Shown here one piece after another: positions 2,872 to 20,581 of a stretch of DNA of 64,000 nt; position 1 is the first letter of the stretch, and the number at the start of each line of letters is the position of its first letter. The notes beneath the pieces are model-generated. The model saw only the letters and a program-made list of their open reading frames with translations, did not search any database and was not told the DNA's origin. Where the stretch lies: the NCBI RefSeq assembly GCF_020515625.1, contig NZ_JAIWPJ010000001.1:1922001-1986000 (forward strand). The letters are read 5' to 3'. The stretch comes from Natrinema amylolyticum (GTDB lineage: Archaea > Halobacteriota > Halobacteria > Halobacteriales > Natrialbaceae). The translations under genes were made by a program, and so were the position numbers.

Positions 2872-3993
2872 ATGAGCGAGACTACACGGGCCGACGACGC
2901 TGGTCCGGTCGCGTCCGACGTGGTTCCCGGCATCGGAACCGTTCTCTCGGCGGTCACGATGGCCGCCATGCTCGCCCCCGTTCGCAGCGGCGTCGACGCT
3001 CCGGTCGTCCTGGCCGGGGCCGGGTTCGCCCTCGCCGCCGTCCTCGCGTTTCTGGCCCAGCGCCACGGCGGTCTCGAGGGGCGAATCGCCGGCCTGATCG
3101 CCGCCGGCTCGAGCGTCGCCGTCGTCCTGCTCGCCGGCTACGCGTTGAATCAGGGGGTCACGGCAGCGGCCACGCTGCCGACGGGGTCAGTGTCGATACC
3201 GATCGTTTTCGTCGCGTTCGTCACCGGTGGGCTCACCGCCGCCGCCGGAGTCGCCGACTACTACGGGATCAGTAGTGCGGGTCTCAAGCGGCGGAGTCTC
3301 CAGGTGATTATGCTATCGGGCGTCGGCGTCGCCGGACTCCTCGTCACGCCCTTCGTCGTCGCCATCCTCGCGATTCCGGTCCGCCCGCTGCTCGAGCCGG
3401 TCTCGCAGATCGAGAACACCGTTTTCACCCAGGTCTGCATGGCCATCGGCACGATGCTCGTCGCGGGGGGGTATCTCGCGATGACCGACCGCGACCTGTC
3501 CTTTATCGATCTCCGACGGCCGACGCTGCGGGACGTCGGCTGGACCCTCGGGGGACTGCTCGTCCTCTTCGGGGCGCTCTTCGTGATCTCCGCGCTCATG
3601 CAGTCGACAGGCGTCGAGAGCGCCGAGCACTCGACGACCCAGCGGGCCCAGGAGAGTCCGCAACTCATGCTCGTCCTAGTGCCGCTGGCCGTCCTGATCA
3701 TCGGCCCGTTCGAGGAACTGCTCTACCGGAACGTGATCCAGAAGTCGCTGTACGACACGTTCTCGCGGTTCGGTGCCGTCGCCGTGGCCAGCGTCATCTT
3801 CGCCCTGGTACATGCACTCGCGTACGCGACCGCGGGACTGGGCGAAGTGATCGCCAGTCTCGGGACCATCTTCGGACTCGCACTCGTCCTCGGGACGATC
3901 TACGAGCGGACCGACAACCTCCTCGTGCCGGCGCTGATCCACGGGCTGTACAACGCGCTCCTCTTCGCGAATCTCTATTTCACCTACGGCTGA
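2872..3993 (+). CDS. CPBP-family intramembrane glutamic endopeptidase (Abi/CAAX-protease type)
   Basis: A 373-residue protein with about eight hydrophobic segments. The C-terminal third carries the full CPBP (PF02517) motif set: EELLYR with the paired glutamates at about 281-282, FALVH with His at about 314, and HGLYN with His at about 357 and Asn at about 361. These residues form the active site of Rce1-type membrane proteases. Family members process prenylated or other membrane proteins, or serve as immunity proteins for bacteriocins; the substrate here is unknown. No bacteriocin-like gene is adjacent. The N-terminal 200 residues are a separate halophile-type membrane region. The ATG at 2872 gives a normal soluble N-terminal tail of about 20 residues. 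Confidence 0.88.
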   Translation: MSETTRADDAGPVASDVVPGIGTVLSAVTMAAMLAPVRSGVDAPVVLAGAGFALAAVLAFLAQRHGGLEGRIAGLIAAGSSVAVVLLAGYALNQGVTAAATLPTGSVSIPIVFVAFVTGGLTAAAGVADYYGISSAGLKRRSLQVIMLSGVGVAGLLVTPFVVAILAIPVRPLLEPVSQIENTVFTQVCMAIGTMLVAGGYLAMTDRDLSFIDLRRPTLRDVGWTLGGLLVLFGALFVISALMQSTGVESAEHSTTQRAQESPQLMLVLVPLAVLIIGPFEELLYRNVIQKSLYDTFSRFGAVAVASVIFALVHALAYATAGLGEVIASLGTIFGLALVLGTIYERTDNLLVPALIHGLYNALLFANLYFTYG

Positions 3994-16559: not shown

Positions 16560-16943
16560 CTATGCACTGGGGTCGAGACTCGGACCGAGATCGGAATCCG
16601 CGTCGCGATCCGCGCTGGATTCGGGGTCGTACGCCGGCTCCGACTCCGACGACGAGCCGGTATCGAGGTCGTCGATGAGCGACTCGAGCGTCTCGATGTG
16701 ATCTTCGAACAGTTCCTCGCCGTGCTCGGTGAGTCGGTACGTCGTCCGGGGCGTTCCGTCGACGAACGCCTTGTCGACGGCGACGCAGTCCGCCGCTTCC
16801 ATGCGATCGATGTGGCTGGCGAGGTTCCCCTCGGTGACCTCGAGCGTCGACGTGAGTTCGGTAAATCCGGTCGCGCCGTTGGCGTAGAGGTGCGCGAAGA
16901 TGCGAAGTCGCGTGGGCTGGTGAACGAGTTTGTCGAATTCCAT
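16560..16943 (-). CDS. Winged-helix transcriptional regulator, last gene of an ABC-2 operon
   Basis: 127 residues. The N-terminal about 85 residues form a winged helix-turn-helix (FDKLVHQPTRLRIFAHLYANG, then TELTSTLEVTEGNLASHIDRMEAADCVAVDKA, and the wing FVDGTPRTTYRLTEHG) of the HTH_34/ArsR-like single-domain type common next to efflux genes. The C-terminal 40 residues are an acidic, probably disordered tail. The ATG at 16943 begins 1 nt after the stop codon of the upstream membrane gene, so it is the fourth gene of a tightly packed operon with the ABC permease and ATPase. Its likely target is the operon's own promoter, where an inverted repeat is present. Confidence 0.85.
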   Translation of the reverse strand: MEFDKLVHQPTRLRIFAHLYANGATGFTELTSTLEVTEGNLASHIDRMEAADCVAVDKAFVDGTPRTTYRLTEHGEELFEDHIETLESLIDDLDTGSSSESEPAYDPESSADRDADSDLGPSLDPSA

Positions 16944-16944
16944 C

Positions 16945-17571
16945 TTAGTAGCGTGAGAGGACGGCGTAGGTTCCGACGTGGTGCAGTGCGATCCCGGCTC
17001 CAAGGGCGGCGTACTCCCAGCCTTCGAGGAGGGGGACGTACGGAATCGCCGCGGAGAGGGCCATGATCCACGCGCCGCCGCCGACGAACGCGTACCGATC
17101 GACGGCCCTGATGTCGTAGGCGGCGAGCAACTGACCCATGAGGACGTAGCCGACGCCGACGACGGCCCCCGCCGAGACGAGCGCGAGGCGGACCGAGTTC
17201 GTCGCGTCGAGCGCGTCGAATACCGGACGGAGTCCGACGATCAGGACGCCGAGCCCGGCCAGTACGGCGAGGAGCCAGCGCTGCTGGCTCGGCAGTCCCG
17301 TGGCCGGCGGCTCGTAGCTCGACTTGAAGCGTCGCTTCGCGAGTTCACAGCAGCCGATCACGCCGGCGAACGCGACGGCGATCCACGGCCGGAACCCCTC
17401 GCGGAGCCAGAACTGGACGACGGCGAAGAGGATCCCGGTACAGAGCCCCTCGACGATCCAGAACCGCCACCAGTAGGGATGCTCCGACGCGAGCCCCATC
17501 GCTCCCTTGATATCCGCGAGTTCGGTTTGAAGCACGTCCGCGTCGACGTCCTCGGATAGCTCTCGGCTCAT
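16945..17571 (-). CDS. Membrane protein of an ABC-2/regulator operon, unknown function
   Basis: 208 residues with about six hydrophobic segments after a soluble acidic N-terminus (MSRELSEDVDADVLQTELADIKGAMG). No ATP-binding or transporter motif. Similar multi-pass proteins commonly sit between an ABC-2 ATPase and a small winged-helix regulator in archaea, and may tether the regulator or form part of a sensing complex; that is inference. The ATG overlaps the ATPase stop by 4 nt (ATGA), and the regulator follows immediately. Confidence 0.75.
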   Translation of the reverse strand: MSRELSEDVDADVLQTELADIKGAMGLASEHPYWWRFWIVEGLCTGILFAVVQFWLREGFRPWIAVAFAGVIGCCELAKRRFKSSYEPPATGLPSQQRWLLAVLAGLGVLIVGLRPVFDALDATNSVRLALVSAGAVVGVGYVLMGQLLAAYDIRAVDRYAFVGGGAWIMALSAAIPYVPLLEGWEYAALGAGIALHHVGTYAVLSRY

Positions 17572-18560
17572 CGTGGATCGGCGGCGGTCGTCGTCGACGG
17601 GTCGTTCGTATAGTACGTAAAGAGGTCGGTATAGGTCGGCTCGACGATCGAGAGCGCCGCCCGATCGATCCCCGCAGCGTCCGCGAGCGCCTCGAGTGAC
17701 GGTTCCGGATCCGCGGCCGCCTCGAGCGAGGGGGGCGCGTCTGCGGGAGTCGCGACCGACGGTGCCGCGTCAGCGTCGTCTCCGGTCGCGTCCCCGTCTC
17801 GCAGCGGGACGAAGCCGCGGACGCTCCCGGCCACTGCGAACGGCTCCCCAGCGACGATATCGGCGAGCGCGCTCGCGTTCGATGCGCCCGTCTCGATGAC
17901 CGGCGGGACCGACGCGAGCAGTTCGTCCGGCGAGCCGGTCGCGACGATCCGACCGTCCGCGAGGAAGGCGATTCGATCCGCGATATCGGCGTTCATCGGC
18001 CGGTGGCTGGCGACGACGATCGTCTTCCCGTCCGCCCGTTTCTCCCGGAACAGGTCGTGGACCGTCGGGATCGTCCCGAGGTCCAGCGCCGCGGTCGGCT
18101 CGTCGAACAGGTACAGCGGGGCGTCGATGCTAGCGGCGATGGCGAGTTCGAGTTTCCGAACCATGCCGCCGGAGTAGTCGGCGACGGATTTCTCGAGGTC
18201 GTCAGTGATTCCGAGCCGCTCGACGTGTGCTCGCCAGTCGTCGGTAAACGCCGGATGGAGCCGGCGGTAGAAATCGACGTTCTCGCGGCCGGTGAGGGAC
18301 TCGAGTGCGAGGGCGTCCTGTAAGAGGAAACTCGTCGTGTCGGCGCGGGCCGTCGCCGGCTCGCCGAAGACGTCGACGCTGCCCGCGGAGGGACGCTCGC
18401 TGCCGGCGAGACAGGAGAGCAGGACCGACTTCCCGACTCCGTTCGGTCCCATGAGAACCAGCAGTTCACCCTCTTCGACCGTGAGGTCGACGCTCTCGAG
18501 GACGCCCTCCTCGCCGAAGGACTTGCGGACCCCATCGGCAATCGCGACCGGATCGCTCAC
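17568..18560 (-). CDS. ABC-2 type transporter ATP-binding protein
   Basis: 330 residues from GTG 18560. It shows Walker A GPNGVGKS (38-45), a Q-loop around FLLQDAL, the signature YSGGM (129-133), Walker B LYLFDEPTAALD (149-160) and an H-loop in VVASHRP. The last about 100 residues are an acidic, Ala/Pro-rich extension (DAAPSVATPADAPPSLEAA) ending in a short LSIVEPTYTDLFTYYTND segment. The final motif LSIVEPTYTDLFTYYT resembles the dimerising C-tail seen in drug/ion-type ABC-2 ATPases. The frame is open far upstream, but that part overlaps the permease gene. The substrate is unknown. Confidence 0.92.
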   Translation of the reverse strand: MSDPVAIADGVRKSFGEEGVLESVDLTVEEGELLVLMGPNGVGKSVLLSCLAGSERPSAGSVDVFGEPATARADTTSFLLQDALALESLTGRENVDFYRRLHPAFTDDWRAHVERLGITDDLEKSVADYSGGMVRKLELAIAASIDAPLYLFDEPTAALDLGTIPTVHDLFREKRADGKTIVVASHRPMNADIADRIAFLADGRIVATGSPDELLASVPPVIETGASNASALADIVAGEPFAVAGSVRGFVPLRDGDATGDDADAAPSVATPADAPPSLEAAADPEPSLEALADAAGIDRAALSIVEPTYTDLFTYYTNDPSTTTAADPR

Positions 18561-19414
18561 GGCGACCACCCCTGATCGTAGAGCGTCCGGTTTACGAGTA
18601 GCGTCCCCGCGAGGACCGCGAGAGCGGCGTAGCCGCCTAACAACGCGATGAACGTCGGGTCGGTCGGCATCGCGGGCGGTGCGACGCCGAGTTCGGTCCA
18701 GCTCTCGGCCGGAACGAGGTGCGACACGAGCAGCCGCGTCGGGAGCGTGTTCGGGAGGTAGTTCAGCACCGGCCCGTCGATCACCGACTGCGCCGGGACA
18801 GCCCCGTTGAGACCGGTGAGGACGAACGTCATGACGGCGACGAGCGTGGTCGCCATCGACGCGATCCGTTTGTTCCCCGCGACGACCACGAACGGGATCG
18901 CTGCGACCATCCAGAAGAGGCAGGTCAGCACGCCGGCGGCCAGAACGATCGGTACCGATTCGGGACCGCGGAGGCCGTAGGACGCGCCGGTAGCCAGGCC
19001 GGCGACGATCGTCGCGGCGAACGCGCCCGCCGCGAGGACGAACCCGGCGGCCATTCGACCGATCAGATCGGCCGACGACGAGATCGGCATCGAGCGATAG
19101 GCTTCGTAGCGTCTGTCCTCGAGATCGGTCGCGAGCTGATTCCCGAAGACGAAGAGACAGACGAACATCGATCCGAGGATCCCGATTCCGATGGAGACGG
19201 TCGCGTCGGACGCGGCCGACCCGCTCGTCCCCTGTATCGCCCGGAGCAGGTACATGATCGCGGGAAACGCGATCACCCACGCCAGCATGAGCCGACTGTT
19301 TCGAGCCTCCTGGAGACTCCGCCGCGTGAACGCACCGGCCTGCTCGAGCCAGACCCGCCGTCCCCCGCTCGACTGCCGTTCGGTCCCGTACCCCTCCTGT
19401 ATATCGGTTGACAT
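18557..19414 (-). CDS. ABC-2 type transporter permease
   Basis: 285 residues from ATG 19414, with six membrane segments. The first follows an Arg-rich coupling region (FTRRSLQEARNSRLMLAWVIAFPAIMYLLRA), as is usual for ABC-2 permeases. It contains LEDRRYEAYRSMPISS between TM2 and TM3, the loop often conserved in ABC-2 drug/lipid exporters. It is the first gene of the operon; a TATA-like CTCTTATCT (rc, about 19446-19454) lies about 35 nt before the start, and the inverted repeat at 19452-19486 abuts it. It overlaps the ATPase start by 4 nt. The substrate cannot be told from sequence. Confidence 0.88.
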   Translation of the reverse strand: MSTDIQEGYGTERQSSGGRRVWLEQAGAFTRRSLQEARNSRLMLAWVIAFPAIMYLLRAIQGTSGSAASDATVSIGIGILGSMFVCLFVFGNQLATDLEDRRYEAYRSMPISSSADLIGRMAAGFVLAAGAFAATIVAGLATGASYGLRGPESVPIVLAAGVLTCLFWMVAAIPFVVVAGNKRIASMATTLVAVMTFVLTGLNGAVPAQSVIDGPVLNYLPNTLPTRLLVSHLVPAESWTELGVAPPAMPTDPTFIALLGGYAALAVLAGTLLVNRTLYDQGWSP

Positions 19415-19451
19415 CGTTTCGCGTCGTCCCGACGAAGCGCTGACAGATAAG

Positions 19452-19486
19452 AGTTTGTGATACAAAGTCACTTTCCGTCACAAACT
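19452..19486. promoter_or_regulatory. Inverted repeat, candidate operator of the ABC-2 operon
   Basis: A perfect 9-bp inverted repeat, AGTTTGTGA (19452-19460) and TCACAAACT (19478-19486), separated by 17 nt. The proximal arm directly abuts the TATA box of the minus-strand ABC-2 operon, where it would cover the TFB-recognition element; the distal arm lies toward the divergent dehydrogenase gene. A nested GTGA...TCAC is also present. Binding by the operon's own winged-helix regulator is the simplest reading but is inference. Confidence 0.55.
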
Positions 19487-19555: not shown

Positions 19556-20581
19556 ATGCAGGCAGTCCAATTCGCGGACCACGGCGACACGGACGTCATC
19601 GAATACGGCGAGTACCCCGACCCCGAGATCGACCGGGACGAGGTCCTGGTCGATATCAAGGCGGCCGCGCTCAACCACCTGGACATCTGGACGCGGCGGG
19701 GAATGCCGGGGATCGACCTCGACATGCCACACATTCCGGGTAGCGACGGTGCCGGTGTCGTCGAAGAGGTCGGCGAGGACGTGACCCGCTTCGAGGAGGG
19801 CGACCACGTCGCGCTCTCGGCCGGCGTCGGCGATCTGCGGATGGACGATCCGACGCTCGACCCACACTTCCACATCATCGGCGAGCACGTCACGGGTGTC
19901 CACTCCGAGTACGCCGCGATCCCCGAGGACAACCTGATCCCCGTCCCCGAGCACGTCGACTGGGAGGTCGCCGGCTCGAGCTGTCTGGTCTTCCAGACCG
20001 CCTGGCGGATGCTCATCGAGCGCGCCGAACTCGAGGCCGGCGAGACGGTGCTCGTGCTCGGCGCGAGCGGCGGGGTCGGCCACGCCGCCCTTCAGATCGC
20101 CGACTACGCGGGCGCGGAGGTGTACGCCACCGGCAGCACCGAGGAGAAGCTCGACTACGCCGAGGAACACGGCGCGGACCACGTCTGTAACTACGAGGAG
20201 GAGGACTTCGCGGACTGGGTCCTCGAGGAGACCGGCGGCCGCGGCGTCGACGTCGTCGTCGAGCACGTCGGCGCGCCCACCTGGCAGAACTCCCTGAAGA
20301 GTCTGACCAAGGGCGGGCGGCTCGTCACCTGCGGCGGCACCGGCGGCGGCAACCCCGAGACGGACATTCCGCGCATCTTCTGGAACCAACTCGAGATCAT
20401 CGGGTCGACGATGGCGACGCCCGATCAGGTCGACGACGTGATGGAACTCGTCTGGGACGGTACGTTCCAGCCCGCGATCCGCGAGGAGCTGCCGATGAGC
20501 GAGACCGCGCGCGCTCACGAGATCATCCAGAACCGGGAAGGGTTCGGCAAGGTCGTCGTCCGGCCGGACAGCGAACTCTGA
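19556..20581 (+). CDS. Medium-chain NAD(P)H dehydrogenase, quinone-oxidoreductase/alcohol dehydrogenase-like
   Basis: 341 residues. The N-terminal GroES-like domain has AAALNHLDIWTRRG (about 40-53) and HIPGSDGAGVVEEVGEDV (about 61-78); the Rossmann domain has VLVLGASGGVGHAALQIADYAGAEVYATG (about 164-192). The catalytic-zinc Cys of classical alcohol dehydrogenases is replaced by Asn (ALNHLD), and the four-Cys structural zinc lobe is absent, so a zinc-free quinone-oxidoreductase-type enzyme is more likely than a zinc ADH. The substrate is unknown. It is divergent from the ABC-2 operon; a TATA-like GTTATGG is about 30 nt before the ATG. Confidence 0.88.
   Translation: MQAVQFADHGDTDVIEYGEYPDPEIDRDEVLVDIKAAALNHLDIWTRRGMPGIDLDMPHIPGSDGAGVVEEVGEDVTRFEEGDHVALSAGVGDLRMDDPTLDPHFHIIGEHVTGVHSEYAAIPEDNLIPVPEHVDWEVAGSSCLVFQTAWRMLIERAELEAGETVLVLGASGGVGHAALQIADYAGAEVYATGSTEEKLDYAEEHGADHVCNYEEEDFADWVLEETGGRGVDVVVEHVGAPTWQNSLKSLTKGGRLVTCGGTGGGNPETDIPRIFWNQLEIIGSTMATPDQVDDVMELVWDGTFQPAIREELPMSETARAHEIIQNREGFGKVVVRPDSEL

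Follow-up and report, generated by a model that had tools for sequence, protein, structure and literature searches.

Three accounts describe systems in which a small DNA-binding regulator is coupled to a membrane protein encoded beside it. In the HAAS-PadR systems, a standalone winged helix works with a neighbouring, often membrane, partner, and this arrangement has been proposed as an alternative to two-component systems; the neighbours and the membrane domains are varied (PMC11237479). In Bacillus subtilis, the small autorepressor SdpR is co-encoded with the polytopic membrane protein SdpI, which sequesters it (PMC1626106). The LytTR systems, such as HdrRM and BrsRM, combine a regulator and a membrane inhibitor with tandem promoter-proximal sites, have links to ABC transporters and are described for some archaea (PMC6193735).

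The window analysed here, a stretch of 64,000 nucleotides from Natrinema amylolyticum, carries a four-gene operon that ends with a membrane protein gene (mem) and a regulator gene (Table 1). Mem and the regulator most likely form a circuit of the same sort as the three systems above, assembled from other protein families. As in the HAAS-PadR systems, the winged helix stands alone and is coupled to a neighbouring partner (41/43 haloarchaeal and 25/28 bacterial loci), but the regulator belongs to HTH_34, an operator is defined here and mem has no HAAS-type Pfam match. SdpR and SdpI differ in that they belong to other families, and the gene order here is membrane protein followed by regulator. 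The LytTR systems use a LytTR activator and direct repeats with the regulator gene first, whereas here we found HTH_34, inverted dyads and the membrane gene first. Because the protein families differ, the module was not placed in HAAS-PadR, SdpRI or LytTR. The best explanation, which we hold to be fairly probable, is that the operon is repressed by the regulator it encodes, and that the mem partner releases this regulator upon a membrane signal.

Table 1. Genes and putative regulatory elements of the operon and its surroundings, numbered within the window
Feature	Position	Strand	Remarks
Alcohol dehydrogenase-like gene	19556..20581	+	divergent; start about 70 nt from the operator
Distal operator dyad AGTTTGTGACGGAAAGT	19470..19486	-	10/12 consensus positions
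Proximal operator dyad ACTTTGTATCACAAACT	19452..19468	-	11/12 consensus positions; distal dyad 18 bp away
TATA-like box CTTATCT	19445..19451	-	abuts the proximal dyad; read from the sequence, promoter role inferred
Permease, ABC-2-like, 285 aa	18557..19414	-	identity mainly from context
ABC transporter ATPase, 330 aa, GTG start	17568..18560	-	PF00005, 6.5e-24
C-terminal extension of the ATPase	17568..17900	-	about 110 residues past the ABC domain
Membrane partner (mem), 208 aa	16945..17571	-	predicted N-terminal cytoplasmic helix and six TM helices
Winged-helix regulator, HTH_34 (PF13601), 127 aa	16560..16943	-	Pfam 1.1e-20

The four genes had been read as one operon in the earlier note, with two overlaps of 4 nt followed by a gap of 1 nt, and the gene coordinates agree with this. 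The permease reached 14.1 bits against Pfam ABC2_membrane_5, which is below the cut-off of 25. Mem had been described as having no known motif, and this was borne out by a Pfam scan that gave no family. A reading of the region as a defence system was discarded; PADLOC returned generic ATPase matches and a weak Csa3 match and nothing else. An alcohol dehydrogenase-like gene is found near the operon in 8/43 loci, and in those loci the divergent gene may share the operator.

The regulator scored 74 bits against HTH_34 (PF13601), above the curated cut-off of 27, compared to 23.9 bits against the PadR family (PF03551), below the curated cut-off of 27 for that family, and the Pfam scan gave no LytTR match in it. 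Its nearest solved structure is PH1061 of Pyrococcus horikoshii (PDB 1ub9, 1.5e-7). Apart from its winged helix (about 95 aa) the protein has little else, and a ligand domain is not obvious. At a threshold of E 1e-8, the regulator is present in 47 of the 292 genomes of the class. In the collection of papers searched, none contained PF13601 or HTH_34; relatives could stand under locus names.

Upstream of the operon, the perfect 9-bp inverted repeat AGTTTGTGA/TCACAAACT that had been noticed before was confirmed at 19452-19486. In shuffled windows such a pattern has an expectation of 0.00, and the 4.7-Mb genome contains it once. Comparison with relatives showed that the repeat forms merely the outermost parts of an array of two tandem 17-bp dyads, with the consensus ACTTTG-N5-CAAAGT per dyad; the repeat arms are therefore really 17 nt long and 82% complementary. 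The earlier note had staked its proposal on conservation of the repeat, and the operator was indeed kept in 42/42 haloarchaeal loci. Upstream of the first gene, at least 9/12 positions were found in all 42 of them and at least 10/12 in 39, while 119 permuted half-sites reached at most 3/42 loci. This set comprises 41 of the 43 loci with a mem match (L046 and L075 were left out) together with L091. The spacing of the second dyad is 18 bp in 21/42 loci and 17 bp in 8/42. These comparisons strongly support that the operator is conserved together with the regulator.

The positions of the sites were judged by the promoter rules of archaea and bacteria. When the 42 loci were aligned on the first dyad, the column profile showed a T-rich, TATA-like box at the constant offset +34 to +40, counted from where that dyad begins, and the proximal dyad would therefore occupy the expected BRE position. 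In the genome of N. amylolyticum, the operator is the sole site with at most one mismatch and the regulator is the sole HTH_34 protein over the cut-off, which suggests a dedicated local switch. A regulon beyond the operon was rejected: at two mismatches 19 places were found versus 51 for a backward control, and none of them, except the operator, went beyond chance.

Mem was found in 40/292 genomes of the class with a patchy distribution, and in its own genus in 2 of the 16 listed genomes, its own included. Two named relatives of mem were found in the genome_contigs set, one at 78% identity in Natrinema thermotolerans and one at 44% in Halostagnicola sp. Among 43 loci, the regulator lies directly after mem in 41, with a gap of 0-13 nt. 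The claim that mem is always placed between ATPase and regulator was wrong; 34 of the 43 loci have the order permease-ATPase-mem-regulator. An ATPase-permease pair of another type lies ahead of mem and regulator in 4/43 loci (L056, L057, L064 and L065) and 3/43 loci have mem and regulator without a transporter (L039, L040 and L068); the operator was retained together with mem and regulator in all of these. In one locus (L046) mem is present without the regulator, and L075 is a spurious mem match without a mem gene that was counted as such among the 43. Three further loci, found through more distant copies of the regulator, contain permease, ATPase and regulator and no mem. At L091 (genome G079, 3613-3725), mem is internally deleted and a short open frame keeps its N- and C-terminal ends, whereas the operator, ATPase, permease and regulator were all kept despite this deletion. 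Together with the three loci that lack mem, this indicates that mem is not essential everywhere.

A second membrane-protein family (mem2) was found in six two-gene operons with distant copies of the regulator. It occurs in 6/292 genomes, and a CTTTG site is located 56-60 nt ahead of the start in its operons. Across the operator of L039 and of L040 lies a divergent gene whose sequence features are those of CPBP proteases; the L039 gene, which was encountered a second time as L132, carries the CPBP annotation and matches PF02517. A gene for a CPBP-type intramembrane protease is also divergent from the mem-regulator pair in Sphingomonas (L145).

The occurrence of loci without mem bears on a different explanation, in which the regulator is an ordinary one-component autorepressor that binds a ligand itself and mem is a controlled effector, acting in immunity or accessory transport. 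We consider this unlikely, even if it would account for the three loci without mem and the loss of mem at L091, where operators were kept. An immunity role for a membrane protein of this kind has a precedent in SdpI (PMC1626106). The distance matrices point in the same direction, with a partial r of 0.40 for permease and mem against 0.24 for mem and regulator. This correlation does not single out the mem-regulator pair and fits mem as a part of the transporter, but it is not decisive. On the other hand, mem was retained without any transporter at L039, L040 and L068, and in bacteria of several phyla the gene ahead of the regulator encodes a small membrane protein, while the other neighbours vary greatly. 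The regulator is also hardly more than its winged helix and shows no evident ligand domain.

AlphaFold2 modelling of mem (three sequences, mean pLDDT 71) gave one N-terminal helix and six TM helices. With the N-terminus inside, conservation was higher on the inner (cytoplasmic) side, with a permutation p of 0.0001 that ignores correlation between neighbours. Counts of K and R across 33 rows were 335 in the inner and 30 in the outer loops, which are of unequal length (62 versus 21 positions). Mem follows the regulator and not the transporter, and its conserved residues are predicted to be cytoplasmic; both observations lend indirect support to control of the regulator from the membrane. The membrane-tethered or ligand-gated auto-repression that the earlier note considered possible is supported in part. 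In Pfam, neither mem nor its 33 relatives matched the SdpI family or, at E values up to 1, the HAAS-type families DUF1700, DUF1129 and DUF1048; mem could still contain a diverged HAAS-like helix. Assignment of mem to a known fold was given up, with a best Foldseek match in the PDB at E 0.3 and a Z of at most 7.6 to unrelated helical proteins in VIA-align 2, a value that means little for helical bundles. A sequence search for solved relatives of mem gave three sodium/calcium exchanger sequences at E 0.34-0.94, which is not significant.

Relatives of the regulator were also found on bacterial plasmids, in Chloroflexota, Thermomicrobium, Bacteroidota, Actinomycetota and Alphaproteobacteria. From overlapping match lists (22, 43, 11 and 41 records, some of them archaeal), 28 bacterial loci were taken, roughly one per species. 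A gene lies immediately upstream of the regulator in 28/28 loci, and this gene has at least three hydrophobic segments in 25/28. The first 25 loci were used to compare 14 regulators with a GNL recognition motif, defined as [ST]xGN[LF], with 11 non-GNL regulators, whose motifs are mostly ALSK, and the last three loci were held out. The ACTTTG half-site had been fixed from the archaea before the bacterial test. Sites of this type were present in 10/14 GNL loci versus 0/11 non-GNL loci (Fisher p = 0.0005), and shuffled upstream regions of the GNL loci gave 1.1 such loci on average and at most 5/14. All 12 of the 12 operator positions were found, for example, in Thermomicrobium, Bacteroides, Persicobacter and Streptomyces coeruleorubidus. 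Dyads of the CTTTCC type, a half-site picked post hoc, reached at least 10/12 in 9/11 non-GNL versus 2/14 GNL loci; in the three held-out loci 10, 12 and 9 of the 12 positions fitted CTTTCC. Of all the findings, this covariation of helix and site speaks most strongly for a direct reading of the operator by the regulator.

In other archaea of the phylum, 25 of the loci L154-L182 were used (four haloarchaeal ones were left out) and 18 of the 25 were parsed. A membrane gene lies upstream in 13/14 GNL loci versus 0/4 GVL loci. An ACTTTG or ACTCTG site with at least 9/12 positions was found in only 9/14 GNL loci, ACTCTG being chosen post hoc, and this counts against the proposed circuit.

In profile comparisons, mem matched two groups of bacterial partners with E values of 5.8e-6 and 9.7e-6, and these two groups matched each other at 6.4e-5. 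The best of 60 shuffles reached 0.021-0.048 and reversed controls 0.006-0.64. The N-terminal helix lies inside every profile alignment between mem and bacterial partners. A third archaeal group matched at 6e-4 (shuffled best 0.0058), which is suggestive only, and no kinship of mem with mem2 or the partners of L154, L156, L157 and L158 was detectable by profile comparison. Seven bacterial partners scanned together had no Pfam family at E 0.01, 13 had no NCBIfam family match, and among another 11 the best match was that of one member to DUF4401 (2.5e-4). A short inner helix on variable membrane parts would fit a docking part combined with varied sensors. Next to the plasmid-borne pairs, we observed genes annotated as LxmA-leader RiPP precursors in Streptomyces (L139 and L153) and a gene annotated as SdpI family in Arthrobacter (L149), while in the Bacteroides plasmid record (L128) the pair is followed by creD.

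From these comparisons we infer binding, repression rather than activation, a contact between mem and regulator, and the signal itself. If the regulator represses its operon and is released by mem, the HTH_34 protein would bind both tandem dyads abutting the TATA-like box, probably as two dimers, and would keep expression of the operon low by blocking TBP/TFB. Mem would sense a membrane signal, for example a compound exported by the transporter or membrane damage, and would use its N-terminal helix on the cytoplasmic side, together with the 4-5 loop, to contact the regulator. It would then release or sequester the regulator, upon which transporter, mem and regulator would be made, and the transporter, where present, would remove the cause of the signal.

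Binding at 23-53 nt before a bacterial start codon would usually block expression. Several of the bacterial sites lie 23-53 nt ahead of the start codon, and repression is therefore favoured. Activator sites of the haloarchaeal GvpE adjoin TATA/BRE, and an operator beside TATA/BRE could equally serve an activator. A LytTR-like positive feedback, in which the regulator activates from sites immediately ahead of the core promoter and is kept inactive by mem, would suit tandem sites that stop right at the TATA-like box and resembles the LytTR systems, described as pairing regulator, membrane inhibitor, promoter-proximal repeats and sometimes ABC transporter genes (PMC6193735), but it is improbable given these bacterial sites and a proximal dyad that, judging from the column profile, covers the expected BRE position.

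The module of mem and regulator is apparently conserved, widespread and so far unnamed. More broadly, HTH_34 and a membrane partner absent from Pfam could constitute a pan-prokaryotic two-gene system for signalling from membrane to DNA, as an alternative to two-component systems. The operator CTTTG-N5-CAAAG would have persisted across Bacteroidota, Thermomicrobium, Streptomyces and haloarchaea, together with a readable recognition code in which GNL reads CTTTG and ALSK reads CTTTCC, and the shared short N-terminal helix of the partner would dock; we see the chances for and against this wider proposal as evenly balanced. An autoregulated ABC operon is ordinary, whereas the same layout of partner and operator in archaea and bacteria is unusual, and this breadth is invisible from the 64-kb window alone. 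Because the operator is a short, clearly delimited element, it should be possible to test directly whether the regulator binds it, in which direction the operon is controlled and what mem does. If true, the proposal would provide a function and a DNA target for the many archaeal and bacterial gene pairs annotated as 'transcriptional regulator' and 'hypothetical protein', and a membrane signal would be read in a simple way, with no histidine kinase.
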